The notes below the pieces were generated by a model, which was given only the letters and a program-made list of their open reading frames with translations, was not told the origin of the DNA and did no database searches. Both the position numbers and the translations under genes were made by a program. Positions 27,153 through 47,065 of a stretch of 64,000 bases of DNA are shown piece by piece. Numbering within the stretch: the first letter of the stretch is position 1; every line of letters starts with the position of its first letter. Origin of the DNA: Actinomycetota bacterium (lineage in GTDB: Bacteria; Actinomycetota; Actinomycetes; Mycobacteriales; Micromonosporaceae); assembly GCA_005885555.1 (NCBI GenBank), contig VAWN01000029.1, positions 91,538-155,537 on the forward strand. The letters are read 5' to 3'.

Positions 27153-28151
27153 ATGGGTACCGCCGCCGGCATGATCGAGCAGGCCCGCCTGCTCCTCGGG
27201 CTCGGCGAGGAACCGCCGGGCTCCAACCACAACCGGGTCACGAAGTGGTACGGCATCGACGCGCCCTGGTGCAACATGGCGATCAGCTTCGAGGCGGGCC
27301 ACTCCGCCAACCTCGACGCGATCGGCGGCAAGTTCGCCTGGACCGTGGCGCACGCCCGGTCGTTCCAGAAGCGCGGCCGCTGGCACTACGGCCTCGGTGG
27401 GATCCGGGCCGGCGACGTGGTGTTCATCGACTGGTCCGGTACCCGGGTCATCGAGAACATCGACCACGTCGGGCTGGTCGAGGCGGTGCACTCCGACGGC
27501 AGCGTCACGACGCTGGAGGGCAACACGTCCGACCGGTTCCTGCGGCGGCGCCGTACCGGCAGCTGCGTCGTCGGGTACGGCCGGCCGTCCTACGACGACG
27601 CGGCCGCGCTGCCGGCCGGCGACGGGATGCTGCGCCGCGGCTCGACGGGTACCCGGGTGCGCACCCTGCAGGAGAACCTCAACCGGGTGATCGGCGCCGG
27701 ACTGGACGTCGACGGCGACTTCGGCCCGCGCACCGAGGCCGCGCTGCGTACCTTCCAGGAGCGGTTGCACGTCGACGTGGACGGCGAGTTCGGCCCGCAG
27801 TCCGCGGCCGCGATGCGGGCGGCGCTGGCCGGCCGCAGTGCGCCGATCCGGCCGGTACCGCGGCTGGCGGTCGTCGGGATGCTGGCCGTGGACGGCGAGT
27901 TCGGCCCGGCCACCTGCACGGCGATGCAGGCGGCGCTGAACCGGCAAGGCGCCGGCATCGTCGTGGACGGTTCGCTCGGCACGCAGACCGCGAAGGCGTT
28001 GCAGAAGCACCTCGGCGTCACGCCGGACGGTGTCGTCGGGCCGGACACGGTACGGGCGCTGCAACGCCGGGTGGGCGGGTCCGTCGACGGCGAATGGGGT
28101 GCGGACACCACCCGGCACCTGCAGACCGCCCTCAACGCCGGCACGTTCTGA
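27153..28151 (+). CDS. Amidase/CHAP-like enzyme with peptidoglycan-binding repeats, no signal peptide
   Basis: A 332-residue lysin-like protein. The N-terminal NlpC/CHAP-like domain has Cys in IDAPWCNMAISF, His in NIDHVGLVE and a closing EGNTSD. Three or more PG_binding_1 repeats follow (about 160-330; RRGSTGTRVRTLQENLN, DGDFGPRTEAALRTFQ, DGEFGPATCTAMQAAL, VDGEWGADTTRHLQTAL). Such proteins cut peptide bonds in peptidoglycan. There is no signal peptide and no holin, so export is unexplained. A strong terminator stem follows at 28164. Confidence 0.82.
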   Translation: MGTAAGMIEQARLLLGLGEEPPGSNHNRVTKWYGIDAPWCNMAISFEAGHSANLDAIGGKFAWTVAHARSFQKRGRWHYGLGGIRAGDVVFIDWSGTRVIENIDHVGLVEAVHSDGSVTTLEGNTSDRFLRRRRTGSCVVGYGRPSYDDAAALPAGDGMLRRGSTGTRVRTLQENLNRVIGAGLDVDGDFGPRTEAALRTFQERLHVDVDGEFGPQSAAAMRAALAGRSAPIRPVPRLAVVGMLAVDGEFGPATCTAMQAALNRQGAGIVVDGSLGTQTAKALQKHLGVTPDGVVGPDTVRALQRRVGGSVDGEWGADTTRHLQTALNAGTF

Positions 28152-28163
28152 CGCCGGCGCCCC

Positions 28164-28201
28164 GCCGCGGGCTTCTCCCACCGCTCCCGGAAGCCCGCGG
28201 C
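28164..28201. terminator. Strong hairpin between convergent genes
   Basis: A perfect 12-bp stem, GCCGCGGGCTTC and GAAGCCCGCGGC, closes a 14-base loop. It lies between the lysin-like gene and the convergent secreted protein and can serve both directions. Confidence 0.75.
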
Positions 28202-28216
28202 GTGCGGCGGTTGTGG

Positions 28217-28264
28217 GATCTTGGACGCCGGTACCCCCGTCAAGGGGTGCCGGCGTCCAAGATT
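28217..28264. repeat. Interspersed 48-bp palindrome, copy 2 (family A)
   Basis: Arms ATCTTGGACGCCGG and CCGGCGTCCAAGAT with a GTACCCCC/GGGGTG inner stem. It touches the stop codon of the minus-strand gene at 28264 and sits next to a separate terminator stem, so it is not needed as the terminator. Confidence 0.85.
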
Positions 28265-29490
28265 CACGCGCCGACCTGCGGGATCGGGTTGCGCTCGTGC
28301 AGCAGCTTCGCGCAGCCGAGCAGGTCGAAGGAGGAGCGCAGCCGCTGCAGGAGGAACGCGTACAGGTTCGGCGCCGCGGCCGGGTCCGGTGACGGTGCGG
28401 CGCGCAACAGCTGGCGGTCCAGGAGCAGCCGCGGCGGCGCGATGTCCACGAGGTTGCGGCAGTAGGCGCGGCCGGTGTCCGACCCGGCGGCGAGCGCCGG
28501 CTGGTTCACCCCGGCACGGTACAGGTTGGTCTTGCTCACGCTGGTCCGGCCGCCGACCTGGGTCATCGGGTCGTTGGTGGGTACCAGCGCGACCGGCTGC
28601 CCGGTCCACGCCGCGGCGGCCAGTTCGTTCAGCGCCACCGAGGACACCATGGTGCCCGGGTCGGTCAGGTCGGGCGCCGTCCACGGGGTGCAGCCCAGCG
28701 CCGGCGCGACGAACTTGTCGACCAGCCCGTTGTCGCTGCCGTTGGTGAGCAGCGTCGCCCGGCCGCCCAGCCGGTTGCGGTTGTCGGCGGTGTTCGGGGC
28801 GGTCTGGCCGTTGGGCAGGACCAGGTACGAGCTGATGACGTTGTCGCTCTGGTCCTGGTCGACCACGGCGAAGTCACGCACCGTCGGGCAGGGCTTGCCG
28901 TCCCGGCCGGTCTGCGCCGCGGGTACCGTCAGCTTCTTCGCGGTGATGGCCGCGTTCGCGGCCTGGAAGAAGGCGGCGGCGTTGCAGTAGGCGAACTGGC
29001 CGAACGGCGAGCCGTTGGCCCCGTTGACGCAGGCGCGGCCGGCGCCGCGCAGGGTGAGGGTGTCACCGTTGTACCCGAACCAGATGCCCACCACGGCGCC
29101 AGCGGGCAGGGTCGGGGTGGTCGGGGTGATCGCCGGGCGCCGGCCGGCGTCGACGACGAGCGGGTGGTACACGCTGACCGCGCCGGTCGCCGGGTCGAGC
29201 ACGGTGGCCTCGACGAACGCGGCCTGGTCCGGGTTGGCCTCGTGGCAGGCGCCCTTGGCCCGGTCGGTCGCGACGAGCTGGTACGGCGTGGCCAGGCCCT
29301 TGGCGCTGAGCGGATCGGCGGGTACCACGAGACTGCAGTTCGGGTTGGGCGCAGCGGGCGGTTGGCTCGCCGCGAGCACGATGCCGGCGCCGCCGACCAC
29401 GACGAGCGGGACGGCCAACGCGGCGACGAGGAGGGCGGTCCGGCGTGGCCGGCCGATGGGAGGGGACGGTTTGTGACTCCGGGGCATCAT
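28264..29490 (-). CDS. Secreted or membrane-anchored conserved protein of unknown function
   Basis: A 408-residue protein with a basic N-region (PRSHKPSPPIGRPRR) and one hydrophobic segment (TALLVAALAVPLVVVGGAGIVL), which is either a signal peptide or an anchor. The exported part has eight or so cysteines (for example NCSLVVPADPLSAKGLATPY, GRACVNG, GKPCPTV, LGCTPW, CRNLVDIAPP), suggesting disulfide bonds. I know of similar unnamed actinobacterial proteins but no function. A 16-bp palindrome lies 127 bp upstream. Confidence 0.75.
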   Translation of the reverse strand: MMPRSHKPSPPIGRPRRTALLVAALAVPLVVVGGAGIVLAASQPPAAPNPNCSLVVPADPLSAKGLATPYQLVATDRAKGACHEANPDQAAFVEATVLDPATGAVSVYHPLVVDAGRRPAITPTTPTLPAGAVVGIWFGYNGDTLTLRGAGRACVNGANGSPFGQFAYCNAAAFFQAANAAITAKKLTVPAAQTGRDGKPCPTVRDFAVVDQDQSDNVISSYLVLPNGQTAPNTADNRNRLGGRATLLTNGSDNGLVDKFVAPALGCTPWTAPDLTDPGTMVSSVALNELAAAAWTGQPVALVPTNDPMTQVGGRTSVSKTNLYRAGVNQPALAAGSDTGRAYCRNLVDIAPPRLLLDRQLLRAAPSPDPAAAPNLYAFLLQRLRSSFDLLGCAKLLHERNPIPQVGA

Positions 29491-29616
29491 TGCCTCACCT
29501 GGGGACGGGGGAGTAGGTCAGGTGCCGAAGTGCGGGTTAGTCACGGAACTGTAACGGCGTCACATTGATTAACTCCAGACAACAAATCCGGACGTAGCGG
29601 AAGACATCAAAGCTGA

Positions 29617-29632
29617 TCACGACATGTCGTGA
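29617..29632. promoter_or_regulatory. Perfect 16-bp palindrome, probable operator
   Basis: TCACGACATGTCGTGA is fully symmetric. It lies in the 169-bp AT-richer gap upstream of the secreted protein gene (start 29490) and 27 bp beyond the stop of the reductase gene. I cannot match it to a known actinobacterial regulator. The rest of 29491-29659 shows no gene. Confidence 0.5.
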
Positions 29633-29659
29633 ACTAAGCGATACAGCGCGCAGTCATGG

Positions 29660-30910
29660 CTACGCGGAGTAGGAGTACTCGCCGGTGGCGTAGTCGACGG
29701 CGCGCTGGTGGATGACGTCGTGCGGGACATCCTGCAGGAGCGCGCGGGTACTGCTGGTGAACGCGTGCGGCGCGTTCACCGCGACCAGCCCGTTCATCAC
29801 GCCGTCGCGGTAGAACGTGGCCAGCAGGCCGGACCGGGCGGCGTCCCGGCGGCCCGGCCGCAGCCGGGTCAGTGCGACGTCCGCGCGCGGGTCGATGACT
29901 CCGCACGCCTGGATGCGCAGGTCGGCCTGCTGCGACCAGAACCGCGGCAGCAGCGTCACCGGCGGCACCGGCCGGTCGTCGGCCAGCAGCGAGCCGGCCG
30001 CCGCCCGGCCCTGTTCCAGCGCGGCGATCCACTGGCCGCAACGGGTCTCCCTGGTGCTGAAGCGCAGGTTCGGCCAGCGGGCCACCACGCCGGCGGCGAC
30101 GACGTCGCGCGTGCCGTACACGCGCAGGTTCTCGTCGCAGCGGATCCCGTCGCGGATGTCCACCCCGGCCTCGGCGAGCCAGTCGGTGTACGGCCGCTCG
30201 CCCGCGGTGACCAGTACCAGGTCGGCGGCGATGTACTCGCCGTCGTCCAGGGTCAGCCGCCACCGGTTGCGGCAGCGGTCCACCTCGGCCACCCGCCGGC
30301 CGAGCCGGGTCTCGATCCCGTAGGCCCGGTGCGCCTCGGTGACGAGCGCGCCGACCGTCTCGCCGAGCGCGCGATACATGAGGGTGGGCTTGGAGTCGAT
30401 GATGATGGCGCGGCGGGCCAGTCCCCGTACCGCACAGGCCGCCTCGCAGCCGGTCAGCCCGCCGCCGACGATGGCGACCCGGTCGGCGTGGTACAGCTCC
30501 TGGCGCACCGCCCAGGCGTCGTCAAGCGTGTGCAGGGTGTGCAGGCCGGGCTCGCCGATCGGCCAGCCGGCCGGTACCACCGGGGCCGCGCCGGTCGCGA
30601 TGACCAGGCCGTCGTACTGGAACGCCTCGTCGTTGTCGGTGATCACGACCTGGTTCTGCGGGTCCAGGTGCACCGCGCGCCGGCCCAGCCGCAGGTCCAT
30701 CGGCGCCTCGGAGGCGGGTAGCCGGACGTCGCTCGGCTTCTGGTGCCCGGACAGCACGCCCTTGGAGCAGGCCGGCCGGTCGTAGGGCGCCTCGTCGCCC
30801 AGTACCGTCAGCTCGCCGGTGAAGCCGAGGCGGCGCAGCTCGTCGGCCGCGGCCATGCCGGCCGGCCCGGTGCCCACCACGACGATGCGGTCCCGCCAGC
30901 CCAGCGTCAT
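29660..30910 (-). CDS. FAD-dependent ferredoxin reductase-like oxidoreductase
   Basis: A 416-residue NAD(P)H/FAD oxidoreductase. Two dinucleotide folds are seen: VVVGTGPAGMAAADELRR at about 10-27 for FAD and VAIVGGGLTGCEAACAV for NAD(P)H. YDRPACSKGVL and the second FAD motif TRDVVAAGVVARWPN fit the rubredoxin/ferredoxin-reductase class. It would pass electrons from NAD(P)H to a ferredoxin; the obvious partner is the ferredoxin domain of the upstream gene at 31008. Together they look like an electron supply for a P450 or another oxygenase, or for a membrane carrier. Confidence 0.85.
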   Translation of the reverse strand: MTLGWRDRIVVVGTGPAGMAAADELRRLGFTGELTVLGDEAPYDRPACSKGVLSGHQKPSDVRLPASEAPMDLRLGRRAVHLDPQNQVVITDNDEAFQYDGLVIATGAAPVVPAGWPIGEPGLHTLHTLDDAWAVRQELYHADRVAIVGGGLTGCEAACAVRGLARRAIIIDSKPTLMYRALGETVGALVTEAHRAYGIETRLGRRVAEVDRCRNRWRLTLDDGEYIAADLVLVTAGERPYTDWLAEAGVDIRDGIRCDENLRVYGTRDVVAAGVVARWPNLRFSTRETRCGQWIAALEQGRAAAGSLLADDRPVPPVTLLPRFWSQQADLRIQACGVIDPRADVALTRLRPGRRDAARSGLLATFYRDGVMNGLVAVNAPHAFTSSTRALLQDVPHDVIHQRAVDYATGEYSYSA

Positions 30911-30948
30911 GAGCGTGCCTGCCTGGTCGCTCCGTGCGGCGCTCTGGT

Positions 30949-30997
30949 GCGCCGCCTTCCCTCGTCGCTGCGCTCCTCAGTCCAGGCGCCGCCGCGC
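30949..30997. repeat. Interspersed 49-bp element (family B), copy 1
   Basis: 47 of 49 bases match the reverse complement of 45829-45877. The core includes CTCGTCGCTGCGCTCCTCAG. It lies in the 97-bp gap between the two redox genes. Confidence 0.8.
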
Positions 30998-31007
30998 CGC
31001 ACTGCGC

Positions 31008-31814
31008 TCATGAGCGCTCCCCGGTCATCACCATCGTGGTGGCCGCGCGGCTGAGCACGATCGCCCGCGCCGGGCAGACCCGGGCCGCCTGGATCACCTG
31101 TTCCACCTGGCCGTTGGGTACCGCGGGCCGGTAGGTGAGCCGGCCGTCGCCGCGCAGCTGGAAGATCTCCGGTGCCTCGTGCTCGCAGAAGCCGAACCGC
31201 ACGCACCGGCTCGGGTCGACGTTGACCATCACCTGCCGGCCGCGTACCCGGGCGCCGACCCGTTCGGCCAGCCGTCGGGGTACCGAGGCGGCCTGCTGCG
31301 TGGTGGCGATCCGCAGCAGGATCACCGACAGCCAGGACGCCACGATCGGTACCCGCACCGCGATCGACCTCGTGTCCGAGCCGGAGATCAGCAGGTGCGC
31401 GCAGAGCAGCGTGAAGGCGAGGTAGGCGGTGATGTGCAGCATCCGCCAGCGGTGGTACCCGAGGCGGCGCTGGATCAGCACCGACGCCGCCAGCGCGATC
31501 AGCAGCTCCAGCGCGATCACGCCGAGGCCGATGCCGAACGGGTCGCGGCCGTTGCTGAACGGCAGCACCTCGTCGATCAGGTGCACCGGCCCGCCGGGTA
31601 CCGCGAGCTGGGCCAGCGCGTGCACCATGCCCAGGGTCAGCCCGACCAGCGTGACGGTCTGGTGCACGCCGTAGAGGGTCTGGTGCCGTACCCGGGTCAG
31701 GCCCCAGCCGACACGCAGCAGGGTTCCCCAGAGCACCGTGGACCACAGGAGGAGGAAGGACAGGAATCCGACGCTGGCGGCGACCAGATGCACACTGTGT
31801 TGCGCAGTCGTCAT
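31008..31814 (-). CDS. Membrane domain fused to a 3-cysteine ferredoxin
   Basis: A 268-residue fusion. Residues 1-180 hold about five hydrophobic helices with histidines placed as in ferric-reductase/cytochrome b-type domains (VHQTVTLVGLTLGMVHAL, YHRWRMLHITAYLAF, LLCAHLLISG), which could bind heme. Residues 195-268 are a small ferredoxin: DPSRCVRFGFC and ARVCPARAI give Cys-x5-Cys and Cys-Pro, the three-cysteine set of [3Fe-4S] ferredoxins that serve P450s. The pair with the ferredoxin reductase suggests NAD(P)H to Fe-S to heme across the membrane. The fusion is unusual. Confidence 0.75.
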   Translation of the reverse strand: MTTAQHSVHLVAASVGFLSFLLLWSTVLWGTLLRVGWGLTRVRHQTLYGVHQTVTLVGLTLGMVHALAQLAVPGGPVHLIDEVLPFSNGRDPFGIGLGVIALELLIALAASVLIQRRLGYHRWRMLHITAYLAFTLLCAHLLISGSDTRSIAVRVPIVASWLSVILLRIATTQQAASVPRRLAERVGARVRGRQVMVNVDPSRCVRFGFCEHEAPEIFQLRGDGRLTYRPAVPNGQVEQVIQAARVCPARAIVLSRAATTMVMTGERS

Positions 31815-32092
31815 TACAGACGTGTTCCCCTGAGGTCGGTCCCCGCTGACCGCGAGCCTTGGTGGGCCGCTGCCGGCGAGGATTGATCTACCACGATGCA
31901 GCGCTGAGTCACTCTTTCAGAGCGCGGTCTGATGTTTCAAGTCGGTCACAAGATCTCTTTGTCGGCGTGTCCGCCCTGCTACTCGGTGCTACCCGCGAGT
32001 AGTCAGGCGGTGGGGGTACGCGTGCCGCGGCCGGGTTGAATGCGGTGCGTGAGCAATGCGCGGTTCCGTTGCGGTACCTGGAAAATTGGTCC

Positions 32093-32361
32093 ATGACGGC
32101 GACCGAGATCGTGCAGGCGTGGTTCGAGATGTGCCGGACCGGCGACGAGGCCCGGCTGGCTGGCCTCGCGACCGACGACTTCACACGGTCCGGTCCACGT
32201 ACCGTGGCGGCTACCTCGACCTGCCCGCTGACGGCCAGCCGGTGCGGGAGACCGGAATCCTCATCCTGCGGATCGTGGACGGCAGGGTGGCCGAGTCCTG
32301 GTTCGAGGGCAACGACCTGGAGGTGGCGCAGCAGCTCGGCGGTCGCATCAGTCCTCGATGA
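32093..32361 (+). pseudogene. Remnant of a SnoaL-like (NTF2-fold) gene
   Basis: The ATG at 32093 opens MTATEIVQAWFEMCRTGDEA, the start of a SnoaL-like domain, but the end of the domain (RGGYLDLPADGQPVRETG, ILRIVDGRVAESWFEGNDLE) is read in another frame and stops at 32361. The whole is 269 bp, against about 400 bp for the family. An internal deletion of roughly 40-50 codons with a frame change near 32185-32215 explains it. The end overlaps the convergent regulator gene by 14 bp. The region 31815-32092 before it holds no other gene that I can support. Confidence 0.65.
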
Positions 32362-32968
32362 CGTACCAGATGCCGACGGCGGGCTCGGTGGTGTCGTTGC
32401 GGTACCGGTGCGGGGTGGTCGAGTCGAACGACACCGCGTCGCCGGGGTGCAGCGTCAGCTCCTCGAAGCCCAGCGTCAGCACCAGGTCGCCGGAGAGCAG
32501 GAAGCCGAACTCCGATCCCGGGTGGCGCATCAGGTCGCCGGTGCTCGACGAGGTACCCCCGGGCGCGTAGGTGACCCGCAGGAAGTCGATCCGGCGGCCG
32601 GGCAGCGTGCCCAACCGTTCCCAGGTGACGCCGGAGTCGAGGGTGAGGACCTGCCGCTGCGCCGGCCGGACGAGCGGGCCCAGCCGCAGGCCGCGCACGG
32701 AAAGGACGGTGGTCGGCCGCGGCACGACAGCCGGACCGGCGTCGTCGTCTGCCGGGGCGGTCTCGAAGACGTCCTGGATGGACATGCCGAGGATCGAGGT
32801 GATCGCGTACAGGGTGCTCACCGACGGCTGCGCCTTGCCGGTCTCGATTTGCGAGATCATGCTCGCCGACACCCCGACCTCGCGGGCCAGCGCGCGCAGG
32901 CTGAGGTCGCGGCGCAGCCGTTCGGCGCGGATCCGCTGGCCCAGCGGCGGCACGTCCGAGGCGGGCAT
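32348..32968 (-). CDS. XRE-family regulator with C-terminal cupin sensor
   Basis: A 206-residue regulator. An N-terminal helix-turn-helix (about 10-65; LSLRALAREVGVSASMISQIE) and a C-terminal cupin (about 130-206; HPGSEFGFLLSGDLVL, HPGDAVSFDSTTPHRY) that should bind a small ligand. This layout is seen in PuuR-like catabolic repressors. ATG at 32968 follows GGAGGGCGCCGG. It is divergent from the seven-gene catabolic operon and most likely represses it through the nested inverted repeats at 32985-33025. Confidence 0.87.
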   Translation of the reverse strand: MPASDVPPLGQRIRAERLRRDLSLRALAREVGVSASMISQIETGKAQPSVSTLYAITSILGMSIQDVFETAPADDDAGPAVVPRPTTVLSVRGLRLGPLVRPAQRQVLTLDSGVTWERLGTLPGRRIDFLRVTYAPGGTSSSTGDLMRHPGSEFGFLLSGDLVLTLGFEELTLHPGDAVSFDSTTPHRYRNDTTEPAVGIWYVIED

Positions 32969-32984
32969 CCGGCGCCCTCCGATC

Positions 32985-33025
32985 GTCAAGTGGACCTTAA
33001 CCATAACTGTTAAGTAATACTTGAC
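32985..33025. promoter_or_regulatory. Nested inverted repeats, operator of the catabolic operon
   Basis: Three symmetric elements overlap in an AT-rich stretch: GTCAAGT (32985-32991) with ACTTGAC (33019-33025); CTTAAC (32996-33001) with GTTAAG (33009-33014); and the 11-base palindrome AAGTAATACTT (33012-33022). They lie between the XRE-cupin gene and the operon and overlap its likely -35 box. Confidence 0.65.
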
Positions 33026-33050
33026 GGCTTCCTTCGAGCAGGCTTACGTT
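33021..33050 (+). promoter_or_regulatory. Likely sigma-70-type promoter of the catabolic operon
   Basis: TTGACG (33021-33026) and TACGTT (33045-33050) are 18 bp apart, about 45 bp before the first start codon. The -35 box lies in the operator palindrome, so a bound repressor would block it. Confidence 0.5.
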
Positions 33051-33096
33051 GGCGACACGCGGTCCCCGGCGCTGACGCCGATCGAGGTGGTCCGAC

Positions 33097-34425
33097 ATGG
33101 CGATCCGAACCTACGGCCCGAACGCGGTCGACTGGGAGGAGCGGGTGGACCTCGACCGGCTCCGCGAACAGCGGCTGGCCCGGCTCAAGGAGACCCTCGA
33201 CGCGTCCCCGCTCGGCGCGCTGCTCACCTTCGACTTCGCGAACATCCGGTACATGACCTCGACGCACATCGGTACCTGGGCGATGGACAAGCTGATCCGG
33301 TTCGCCCTGCTGCCGCGCGGCGGCGAACCGGTCGTGTGGGACTTCGGCTCGGCCGCGCGCCACCACCAGCTGTACAACCCGTGGCTGGACGGCGCGGCGC
33401 GGGCGCGTGCCGGCATCTCCACGCTGCGCGGCGCGTTCCACCCCGACGCCCGCATCGCCGACGAGGTGGCCCGCAAGATCGCCGACGAGCTGGCGAGGCA
33501 CGGGCTGCAGCGCGAGCCGGTCGGCGTCGACCTGGTGGAGCTGCCGGTACTGTTCGCCCTCCAGGCCGCCGGACTGACCATTGTGGACGGTCAGCAGGCG
33601 TTCCTCGCGGCGCGGCGCATCAAGACGCCCGACGAGATCGCGCTGCTGGCCCAGGCCTGCGCGATGGTCGACGCCGCGTACGACGAGCTGTACGGCTTCC
33701 TCCGCCCCGGAGTCCGCGAGAACGAGTGCGTGGGCCTGGTCAGCAAGGTGCTCTACGACCTCGGCAGCGAGTACGTCGAAGGGGTCAACGCCATCTCCGG
33801 GGAGCGCTGCGCGCCGCACCCGCACGTGTACTCCGACCGCCTGCTGCGGCCGGGCGACCCGGCGTTCTTCGACATCCTGCACAGCCATCTCGGGTACCGC
33901 ACCTGTTACTACCGCTGCTTCGCGGTGGGCAGCGCGTCCCGGGCGCAGCGCGACGCGTACACCCGCTGCCGCGAGTACATGGACCAGGCCATCGCGCTGG
34001 TCCGTCCGGGTACCACGACGGCGGAGATCGTCTCGGTGTGGCCGCGCGCCGAGGAGTTCGGCTTCCCCGACGAGGAGGCCGCGTTCGCGTTGCAGTACGG
34101 GCACGGCGTGGGCCTGTCCATCTGGGAGAAGCCCATCTTCAGCCGGCTGGTCTCGCTGGCGCACCCGGAGACCCTCGAAGAAGGCATGGTCTTCGCCCTC
34201 GAAACGTACTGGCCGGCCGCTGACGGCTGGTCCGCCGCGCGCATCGAGGAGGAGGTCGTGGTGACCGCGAACGGGTGCGAGGTCATCACCAAGTTCCCGG
34301 CCGAGGAGCTGCTCGTCGCCGGCCGCAAGTACTGGACCGCCGGCGGGCAGCTGAACACGGTACGGGAGGCACAGTCGCACCTGAACACCGGGAAGGCTGA
34401 ACTTGACGAAGGCGGCCCTCGATGA
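33097..34425 (+). CDS. M24-family metallohydrolase (creatinase/prolidase/DddP-like)
   Basis: A 442-residue pita-bread-fold protein. The N-terminal domain (1-170) is creatinase-like and the C-terminal domain carries metal-ligand motifs: FFDILHSHLGYRTC, QYGHGVGLSIWEKP, EEGMVFALETYWP and RIEEEVVVT. The family includes Xaa-Pro peptidases, creatinase and the DMSP lyase DddP, so this may not be a peptidase. It heads an operon whose other enzymes act on small molecules, which favours a creatinase- or DddP-like role. Stop overlaps the next ATG (34422-34425). Substrate unknown. Confidence 0.8.
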   Translation: MAIRTYGPNAVDWEERVDLDRLREQRLARLKETLDASPLGALLTFDFANIRYMTSTHIGTWAMDKLIRFALLPRGGEPVVWDFGSAARHHQLYNPWLDGAARARAGISTLRGAFHPDARIADEVARKIADELARHGLQREPVGVDLVELPVLFALQAAGLTIVDGQQAFLAARRIKTPDEIALLAQACAMVDAAYDELYGFLRPGVRENECVGLVSKVLYDLGSEYVEGVNAISGERCAPHPHVYSDRLLRPGDPAFFDILHSHLGYRTCYYRCFAVGSASRAQRDAYTRCREYMDQAIALVRPGTTTAEIVSVWPRAEEFGFPDEEAAFALQYGHGVGLSIWEKPIFSRLVSLAHPETLEEGMVFALETYWPAADGWSAARIEEEVVVTANGCEVITKFPAEELLVAGRKYWTAGGQLNTVREAQSHLNTGKAELDEGGPR

Positions 34426-45911: not shown

Positions 45912-47065
45912 TCAGTCCACCCGCAGGATGAGCCCGGACAGCTCGTAGGACTCGATCTGCCTTCGGAACCGCACCACCGGCTCGCGCTCCATCCGGACGC
46001 CCGGCAGCGCGAACAGCTTGGTCAGGAAGATCTCGGTCTCCTGGATCGCGATGTACGCGCCGGGGCAGCGGTGCGGCCCGTCGCCGAACGACAGCACCGA
46101 GCCGGCCACGCCGTCGGGCAGCGACCGGGCCGGGCAGACCTCGGCCGGCTGCTCGCCGACCGTGGCCGGGTCCACGTTCGCGTGCCCGATCGCGATGTCG
46201 ACCCGGGCGCCGGCCGGGATGCGTACCGGGCCGGCCTCGTCGGGTACCTCGACGTCGGCGGTCGTCCACCGGGCCAGGTTGGCCACCACCGGTTCCAGCC
46301 GCAGGATCTCGTGCAGGATCGCCACGCGGGTGGCCTCGTCGCCGGCGACGTAGGCGGTGCGCAGGTTGTCGTCGGTGAACAGGTGCCACGCGGCGACGGT
46401 GATGAACTCCCGCGTGGTGATCATTCCGGCGGCGCCGAACGTGACGCACTCGCCGAGTATCTCGGGGTTGGTGCAGCCCTCGTCGAGCAGGTGGGAGATG
46501 AGGTCGTCGCGGCGCTCGCGGCGGCGGCGCCGGATGGCCGGGCGCACGTCGAACGCCAGACCGCGGCCGGGCTGCGCAGGCCCGGCTGCACCTTGCTCTC
46601 GGTGAAGAACCGGGCCAGCCGGTCGGGGGTACCGCGCCGGGCCGGGGTCAGGCCGATCACGTCACCGGCCACCGCGACGGCCAGCGCGAAGGACAGCACG
46701 GACAGGTCCGCCCGGCCCTTGCGCCGCAGCTTGGCCAGCTGCTCGTCGGCGTACCGGTGCATCAGCTCGCGGTACTTCTCGTGTACCCGTCGCGGCGTGA
46801 AGTACTTCGCCGTCTGGCGCCGGTGTTCGCGGTGCTCGACACCGTCGCGGTACACCACCGGCCGGCGCATCTTGCGCATCGCCTTCCGGGCCCGGTCGGC
46901 GCCGAACCCGGCCTGGCGGGTCTCGGTGCTGCGGAGCACCGACCGCGCGGCGAGATAGCTTTCCACGTGCCAGACACCGGCGTCGTCGACGTGCACGGGG
47001 CAGGTCGACGACGTCTGTTCGGGGCGGGTCTTGCGGCCGGAACGGTCGTGCGTCTCCACGTGCAT
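45912..47065 (-). pseudogene. Cytochrome P450 broken by a frameshift
   Basis: The N-terminal half starts at ATG 47065 (MHVETHDRSGRKTRPEQ) and runs through VLSFALAVAVAGDVIGLTPA and FFTESKVQPGLRSPAAVW. From near 46550-46570 the family continues in another frame: FDVRPAIRRRRRERRDDLIS, the I-helix GAAGMITTREF, the ExxR motif EILRLEP and the heme loop LSFGDGPHRCPGAYIA. The two parts give about 384 residues, slightly short of a normal P450, so a small deletion caused the shift. Neither half could work alone. It is either a recent pseudogene or a sequencing error. An ATG at 47092 could add nine residues. Confidence 0.75.

Follow-up and report, generated by a model that had tools for sequence, protein, structure and literature searches.

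When a ferredoxin of the type that serves cytochromes P450 is fused to a histidine-bearing membrane domain, and a ferredoxin reductase is encoded next door, where do the electrons go? This question is raised by a pair of genes in the window (the whole stretch of 64,000 nucleotides analyzed here), for which the initial annotation had proposed that electrons are carried from NAD(P)H to or across the membrane, unlike in P450 supply chains. Both open reading frames occupy exactly the interval it had given, on the minus strand, at 31008-31814 and 29660-30910 (Table 1).

The fused protein, its reductase and their occurrence

The longer of the two Pfam-defined regions in the fused protein matches Ferric_reduct (PF01794) with 35.3 bits against a gathering score of 28, and it is followed in the same frame by matches to Fer4_15 on residues 197-253 (35.2 bits; cut-off 22.4) and to Fer4_13 (30.4 bits; cut-off 24.5). 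Pfam detects only these ferric-reductase-type (FRD) and Fer4 domains, with neither a C-terminal FAD/NAD(P)H dehydrogenase domain nor PF00175, and the only NCBIfam matches are to MsrQ and MamZ, far under cut-off (21.5 bits against 130 for MsrQ). Both domains are present in 9/9 rows of our alignment of fusions (A1). The fusion of a membrane domain to a ferredoxin, as originally claimed, is confirmed to be real and not a product of chance, because the layout, four histidines and three cysteines are kept in 24 non-identical sequences. These 24 remained from 41 after removal of 17 that were identical over the core; they include the window protein and its two paralogues and are not independent, as three from Asanoa are close to each other and three Kineosporia-like ones are near-identical. 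The membrane part had been called a b-type-like domain, of which the histidine-bearing character stands, but the protein belongs with the FRD (NOX/MsrQ) superfamily and not with the classical respiratory cytochromes b.

Table 1. Features of the fusion gene and the two genes downstream of it (window positions; protein residues as numbered in the fusion)
Feature	Position	Strand	Basis
FRD-ferredoxin fusion, 268 aa: five-helix ferric-reductase-type membrane domain with C-terminal single-cluster ferredoxin	31008..31814	-	Pfam, hydropathy, A1
Membrane (FRD) part, residues 1-172; PF01794 match at residues 16-138	31299..31814	-	Pfam, hydropathy
Ferredoxin domain, residues 197-253, CVRFGFC...CP (Cys204, Cys210, Cys247)	31056..31226	-	Pfam, solved relatives, conservation
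His51, predicted inner-heme ligand, matching SpNOX H69 by spacing	31662..31664	-	Same histidine in all rows (24/24 fused, 44/44 unfused)
His65, predicted outer-heme ligand, matching SpNOX H83 by spacing	31620..31622	-	Conservation, SpNOX spacing
His127, predicted inner-heme ligand, aligned with SpNOX H129	31434..31436	-	Conservation, profile alignment, SpNOX spacing
His140, predicted outer-heme ligand, aligned with SpNOX H142	31395..31397	-	Conservation, profile alignment, SpNOX spacing
FAD/NAD(P)H ferredoxin reductase, BphA4 type, 416 aa	29660..30910	-	Pyr_redox_2 and Reductase_C (Pfam)
"SecA" (label used here), putatively exported protein, 408 aa, 169 bases past the reductase	28264..29490	-	Export judged by eye from the N-terminus

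The three cysteines of the ferredoxin domain are invariant in all 24 fusions, and the variable position of the CXX?XXC(X)nCP pattern (residue 207) is occupied by phenylalanine in 23/24 and by aspartate in 1/24, as in the P450-type pattern with a non-cysteine at that place. The top-scoring solved relative is the CYP51-ferredoxin fusion chain 6mcw (E 6.4e-07). Passages of PMC6237146 describe CxxFxxC(X)nCP as a P450-ferredoxin motif, found in Fdx6 of M. marinum, regard every residue at the variable position except phenylalanine as a possible cluster ligand, and report [3Fe-4S] clusters in the ferredoxins examined. The cluster of the fusion is thus most likely of the [3Fe-4S] kind. Potentials of related clusters in passages of the same source, among which Fdx6 does not figure, range from -340 to +230 mV (PMC6237146), so that the step from cluster to heme could be uphill. 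Another locus encodes, about 2 kb from its fusion, an additional stand-alone ferredoxin of the type seen in the fusion (L076 5710-5898, plus strand).

The initial annotation had taken the adjoining gene for the likely reductase. It has the BphA4-type combination of Pyr_redox_2 and Reductase_C, its top-scoring solved relative is the biphenyl dioxygenase ferredoxin reductase 4h4p (E 5.6e-42), and it follows the fusion on the same strand after a gap of 97 bases. This arrangement is kept in 21/24 fused loci, two of which (L002 and L081) have the reductase split over two frames; elsewhere, the contigs of L003 and L042 break off 28 and 59 bases past the ferredoxin, and the 7,952 bases downstream of the L079 fusion contain no reductase. 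As contig C43 of the window's own genome, which carries L003, ends after the ferredoxin, and contig C44 of the same genome opens partway through a reductase gene, with a SecA homologue after it, C43 and C44 are probably genomic neighbors. In the second own copy (L045 10480-12015, plus strand, contig C31) the reductase shifts frame near residue 357-361, and the third own fusion (L046 7688-10406, plus strand, contig C43) lies just downstream of genes that by eye resemble the pntAB transhydrogenase genes. Scans for promoters and terminators over 28000-33200 of the window found nothing. Asp172 of the window reductase aligns with the glutamate that terminates the NAD-fold beta2 strand of BphA4; an acidic residue at this place favors NADH, which suggests that the enzyme prefers NADH.

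The fusion is rare. The window genome has three copies (100, 83 and 80% identity), and a search of contigs returned 10 related loci, nine of them fused (three from Asanoa, two from Kineosporia and four from metagenome-assembled genomes) and one, L044, with the FRD only. The annotation's proposal to look for the same fusion across actinobacteria was fruitful within the GTDB family of the window, where 16/61 genomes and 9/44 genera have it (match over both domains, E <= 1e-70); Asanoa, as a member of Micromonosporaceae in the NCBI taxonomy, belongs to this sampled family. Farther out, an uninterrupted fusion was seen only in the window's own genome, both in a sample of the class (296 genomes, best 8 candidates per genome) and in one of the phylum (396 genomes, best 6 candidates per genome), these two samples sharing genomes.

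A FastTree phylogeny of 161 FRD columns and 61 tips, rooted at the midpoint and with seven duplicate unfused rows left out, unites the fused FRDs in one clade (support 0.959), sister (joint support 0.996) to seven FRDs with separate neighboring ferredoxin and reductase genes. At one of these seven loci (L048 8399-9976, minus strand) a single TGA interrupts the shared frame of FRD and ferredoxin, and the reductase follows; this is plausibly a picture of the pre-fusion state. These relationships suggest that the fusion arose once, from a three-gene operon.

Paired histidines and the predicted path of electrons

The initial annotation had staked its reading on paired histidines throughout the family. 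Such pairs are present: H51, H65, H127 and H140 are invariant in 24/24 fused sequences and in 44/44 unfused FRD rows, which correspond to 37 distinct loci, still include seven duplicates and had been chosen for their resemblance to the window FRD. Helix 2 holds His51 and His65, and helix 4 holds His127 and His140, at spacings of 14 and 13; H9 (23/24 fusions) and H44 (21/24) are also conserved. A profile built from 12 FRDs aligns the His127-His140 stretch, weakly and in register (E 0.011), with chains 8qt6 and 8qq7, which we take to be SpNOX structures, and the 8qq7 histidines opposite His127 and His140 count to 129 and 142. In SpNOX, according to passages of PMC11564096, H69/H129 bind the inner heme and H83/H142 the outer heme, the spacing being that of the fusion. 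With all four histidines the fusion is unlike most of the short bacterial FRD forms: according to passages of PMC3591440, two or three of these residues are usual there, and few forms have the complete set.

Five long helices are indicated in agreement by hydropathy windows and by the helices of an AlphaFold model computed from the nine rows of A1. As the mean pLDDT of this model is 50.5, it was used for the helix pattern alone; of the structural check once envisaged for the histidine pairs, the five-helix pattern fits the hydropathy, but the confidence is poor. The loop ahead of helix 2 has a charge of +2, that joining helices 2 and 3 one of -2 and that joining helices 3 and 4 one of +4, and the segment after helix 5, ferredoxin included, has a charge of +7. 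Going by these loop charges alone, the protein should have its N-terminus outside and its ferredoxin domain in the cytosol, in agreement with the earlier placement of this domain at the cytosolic end of the membrane domain.

Our proposal is that these genes specify a relay that exports electrons across the membrane, running from NADH through FAD, the ferredoxin, an inner and an outer heme b to an extracytosolic acceptor, and we would give this reading a probability of about 0.7. The reductase would take hydride from NADH onto its FAD and hand single electrons on to the ferredoxin, which most likely carries a [3Fe-4S] cluster and is tethered to the cytosolic end of the five-helix FRD. From there an electron would pass to a predicted inner heme b held by His51/His127, then to an outer heme b held by His65/His140, and leave at the outer face of the membrane. 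The likeliest acceptor would be a co-encoded exported protein, or else a metal bound there as an ion or complex, the candidates being a membrane-anchored DUF4142 protein in most relatives and possibly the protein encoded at 28264-29490 in the window. The order of carriers follows from the ferredoxin motif and the alignment of Asp172 in the reductase. We infer the heme and cluster content, topology, direction of flow, NADH preference and acceptor of this relay from the domains, ligand residues, their spacing and conservation, the gene order and the clade, all of which can be read from the sequences. The histidine pairs, the predicted cytosolic position of the ferredoxin, the conserved reductase and the exported neighbors all favor a path of electrons from NAD(P)H across the membrane over one to a P450, a result in keeping with what the initial annotation had foreseen.

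Exported neighbors and alternative destinations

SecA of the window has no match in Pfam or NCBIfam. Its homologues follow the reductase at L035 (67% identity) and on C44, and in this lineage (the window, L035 and C44) SecA replaces DUF4142 as the neighbor. In 16/24 fused loci a DUF4142 match is found 155-699 bases upstream of the FRD match, 11 times divergent and five times on the same strand, and Pfam's own model places 12 such neighbors above cut-off, in 11/16 fusion-bearing genomes. In one genome (G675) the sole DUF4142 gene adjoins the fusion. No DUF4142 is found beside the fusion in 8/24 loci, including those of the window, its two paralogues and L035; at three of these eight (L035, L065 and L081) the upstream sequence is shorter than 2 kb. 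The alignment of the DUF4142 proteins (A4, 14 rows) ends by eye in a hydrophobic segment in the five rows that reach the C-terminus, and its invariant residues include Glu81, His108, His161 and His194 (L037 numbering), which possibly form a metal site. The domain presumably belongs to the ferritin clan of Pfam.

The FRD-linked DUF4142 subfamily, defined as the A4 matches at E <1e-50 (the next ones being at about 1e-26), occurs in 13/16 fusion-bearing as against 20/45 fusion-lacking genomes of the family sample (Fisher p 0.018, with related genomes treated as independent). As it occurs in those 20/45 genomes, and is absent beside 8/24 fusions, we reject DUF4142 as an obligate partner. A second putatively secreted protein, SecB (alignment A3), is encoded within 3.8 kb of the fusion in 9/24 loci; it also lies near the DUF4142 gene in 4/12 fusion-lacking loci, one taken from each of 12 of the 20 genomes, and for this reason DUF4142 and SecB appear to be an envelope pair in their own right. 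One such pair without an FRD fusion sits beside a lipoprotein-like gene (L106 5986-7654, plus strand). The model of SecB (pLDDT 57.4) gave weak immunoglobulin-like matches, none at E <= 0.001, and a C...H...M motif considered as a cupredoxin site was dropped, as neither the model nor the structure matches spoke for it. Contig C141 of the window's own genome encodes an apparently exported protein of 509 aa in which two DUF4142 domains, both of the subfamily linked to FRDs, stand in tandem (L095 8025-9554, minus strand), 4.6 kb from a third SecA.

It is conceivable, as a tentative extension of the export relay, that the reductase, the tethered [3Fe-4S] ferredoxin and the di-heme FRD deliver electrons at the outer face of the membrane to a DUF4142 metalloprotein dedicated to this role, which would be exported, membrane-anchored and accompanied by a secreted partner. 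If this were true, DUF4142, a large family, would gain a redox role, and the system would be a so far undescribed kind of actinobacterial electron export. The gene arrangement offers a testable lead on what the FRD-linked DUF4142 proteins do.

The outer heme could also dispense with a protein partner, being exposed, and directly reduce extracellular Fe(III) or Cu(II) for the metal supply of the cell. The FRD superfamily includes such assimilatory ferric and cupric reductases, as stated in passages of PMC3591440, and an imelysin/Peptidase_M75 gene lies upstream of an unfused relative (L052). Against this, the conserved neighbors are exported proteins instead; no siderophore, VIT1 or metal-uptake gene was recognized by eye among the genes listed around 10/24 fused loci, and no iron-box-like match was found in the window, which is a weak test. 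We consider this reading unlikely.

Superoxide formation from O2 at the outer heme, with ferredoxin and reductase replacing the fused dehydrogenase of a NOX, would agree with the two-heme ligand set and spacing, which are the same as in SpNOX. Four residues after the outer ligand His65, however, the fusion has Gln69, invariant in the nine rows of A1, where the NOX-specific extra histidine would stand (His119 of NOX2, four residues past the outer TM3 ligand, in passages of PMC3591440). This argument is weakened by the unfused sister FRDs: among three of the seven, read by eye, some have histidine at the place of Gln69. The lack of a fused dehydrogenase domain, and the potential ranges in passages of PMC6237146, which suggest that many [3Fe-4S] ferredoxins are not of sufficiently low potential to favor superoxide, make an oxidase of this kind improbable.

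The ferredoxin and reductase are both of the kind that supplies P450s and oxygenases, so the membrane part might be a mere anchor in an ordinary P450 or desaturase supply chain. A P450 gene lies about 14 kb off in the window (45912-46900, minus strand), with FGDGPHRCPG in its C-terminal part and the apparent N-terminal part in another frame; this split marks either a pseudogene or a sequence error. By eye, a desaturase-like gene also lies beyond the reductase at the unfused L048. An anchor, however, would not need invariant heme-ligand histidines. Moreover, with flanks of varying length, the P450 heme motif appears at no fused locus other than that of the window, and otherwise only at the unfused L052, and the unfused sister operons retain the FRD with ferredoxin and reductase, so we regard such a supply chain as very improbable. 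That the FRD, by analogy with MsrQ, described as a quinone-binding subunit in passages of PMC8238504, might exchange electrons with the quinone pool, the relay running on quinol or in reverse and the ferredoxin accepting electrons or serving regulation, is hardly credible given the NAD(P)H reductase kept downstream in 21/24 loci and the presence of all four histidines, as against three in YedZ (passages of PMC3591440).

Comparison with known systems

Both its PF01794 score above the gathering threshold and its paired histidines 13-14 residues apart place the fusion in the FRD superfamily, where by analogy it would work like a NOX/MsrQ-type relay with the ferredoxin as electron port. With SpNOX and the long bacterial FRDs it shares the FRD core, two predicted hemes b at the same histidine spacing and, as we read it, electron flow from cytosolic NAD(P)H to the outside. 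It differs from them in having a single-cluster ferredoxin and a separate BphA4-type reductase in place of the fused FAD/NADPH dehydrogenase, so that the ferredoxin would occupy the place of the flavin beside the inner heme, and in its five predicted helices as against what are presumably six. We reject membership in NOX on account of the missing dehydrogenase domain and of Gln69 in place of the extra histidine. YedZ has reportedly been found fused to electron carriers (von Rozycki et al., 2004).

Like MsrQ/YedZ, the fusion is a short FRD protein with a separate reductase as its electron source; in MsrQ the donor is the flavin reductase Fre (passages of PMC5676040), whereas here it would be a ferredoxin tethered to the membrane protein itself. 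Membership in MsrQ/YedZ is likewise rejected, in that the first heme-spanning histidine is replaced by arginine there (passages of PMC3591440), whereas His51 is histidine in 24/24 fusions, all four histidines are present, and the MsrQ model scores far below its cut-off. The MsrQ-like flavinylated systems of Actinobacteria, as presented in passages of PMC8238504, resemble it in that a PF01794 protein sends electrons of cytosolic NAD(P)H outward, but the fusion has a ferredoxin port and is devoid of a C-terminal PF00175 domain. FMN_bind was not adjacent to the fusion in the 16 genomes searched, some fusion contigs being short, and the nearest lies 7.8 kb away (G685). Membership in these flavinylated systems finds no support in the domains and FMN_bind neighbors covered here.

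The CYP51-Fdx fusions (6mcw) likewise join a ferredoxin to its acceptor and still require a separate reductase (passages of PMC9868604); unlike these and other P450 systems with CxxFxxC ferredoxins, the acceptor here is a membrane domain with predicted heme-ligand histidines and not a P450. The bacterial FRD fusions in passages of Zhang et al. 2013 (PMC3591440) also combine an FRD with an electron-carrier domain, but the extra bacterial and eukaryotic domains named there (Fer2, Rieske, FMN, DOMON, MFS and others) do not include Fer4 or a [3Fe-4S] ferredoxin, and we found no description of an FRD-[3Fe-4S] fusion in titles, abstract openings and passages of the open-access literature. The architecture described here points to a fused ferredoxin that can drive, in place of a flavin domain, the FRD core otherwise familiar mainly from NADPH oxidases, and would link P450-style ferredoxins to transmembrane electron export.
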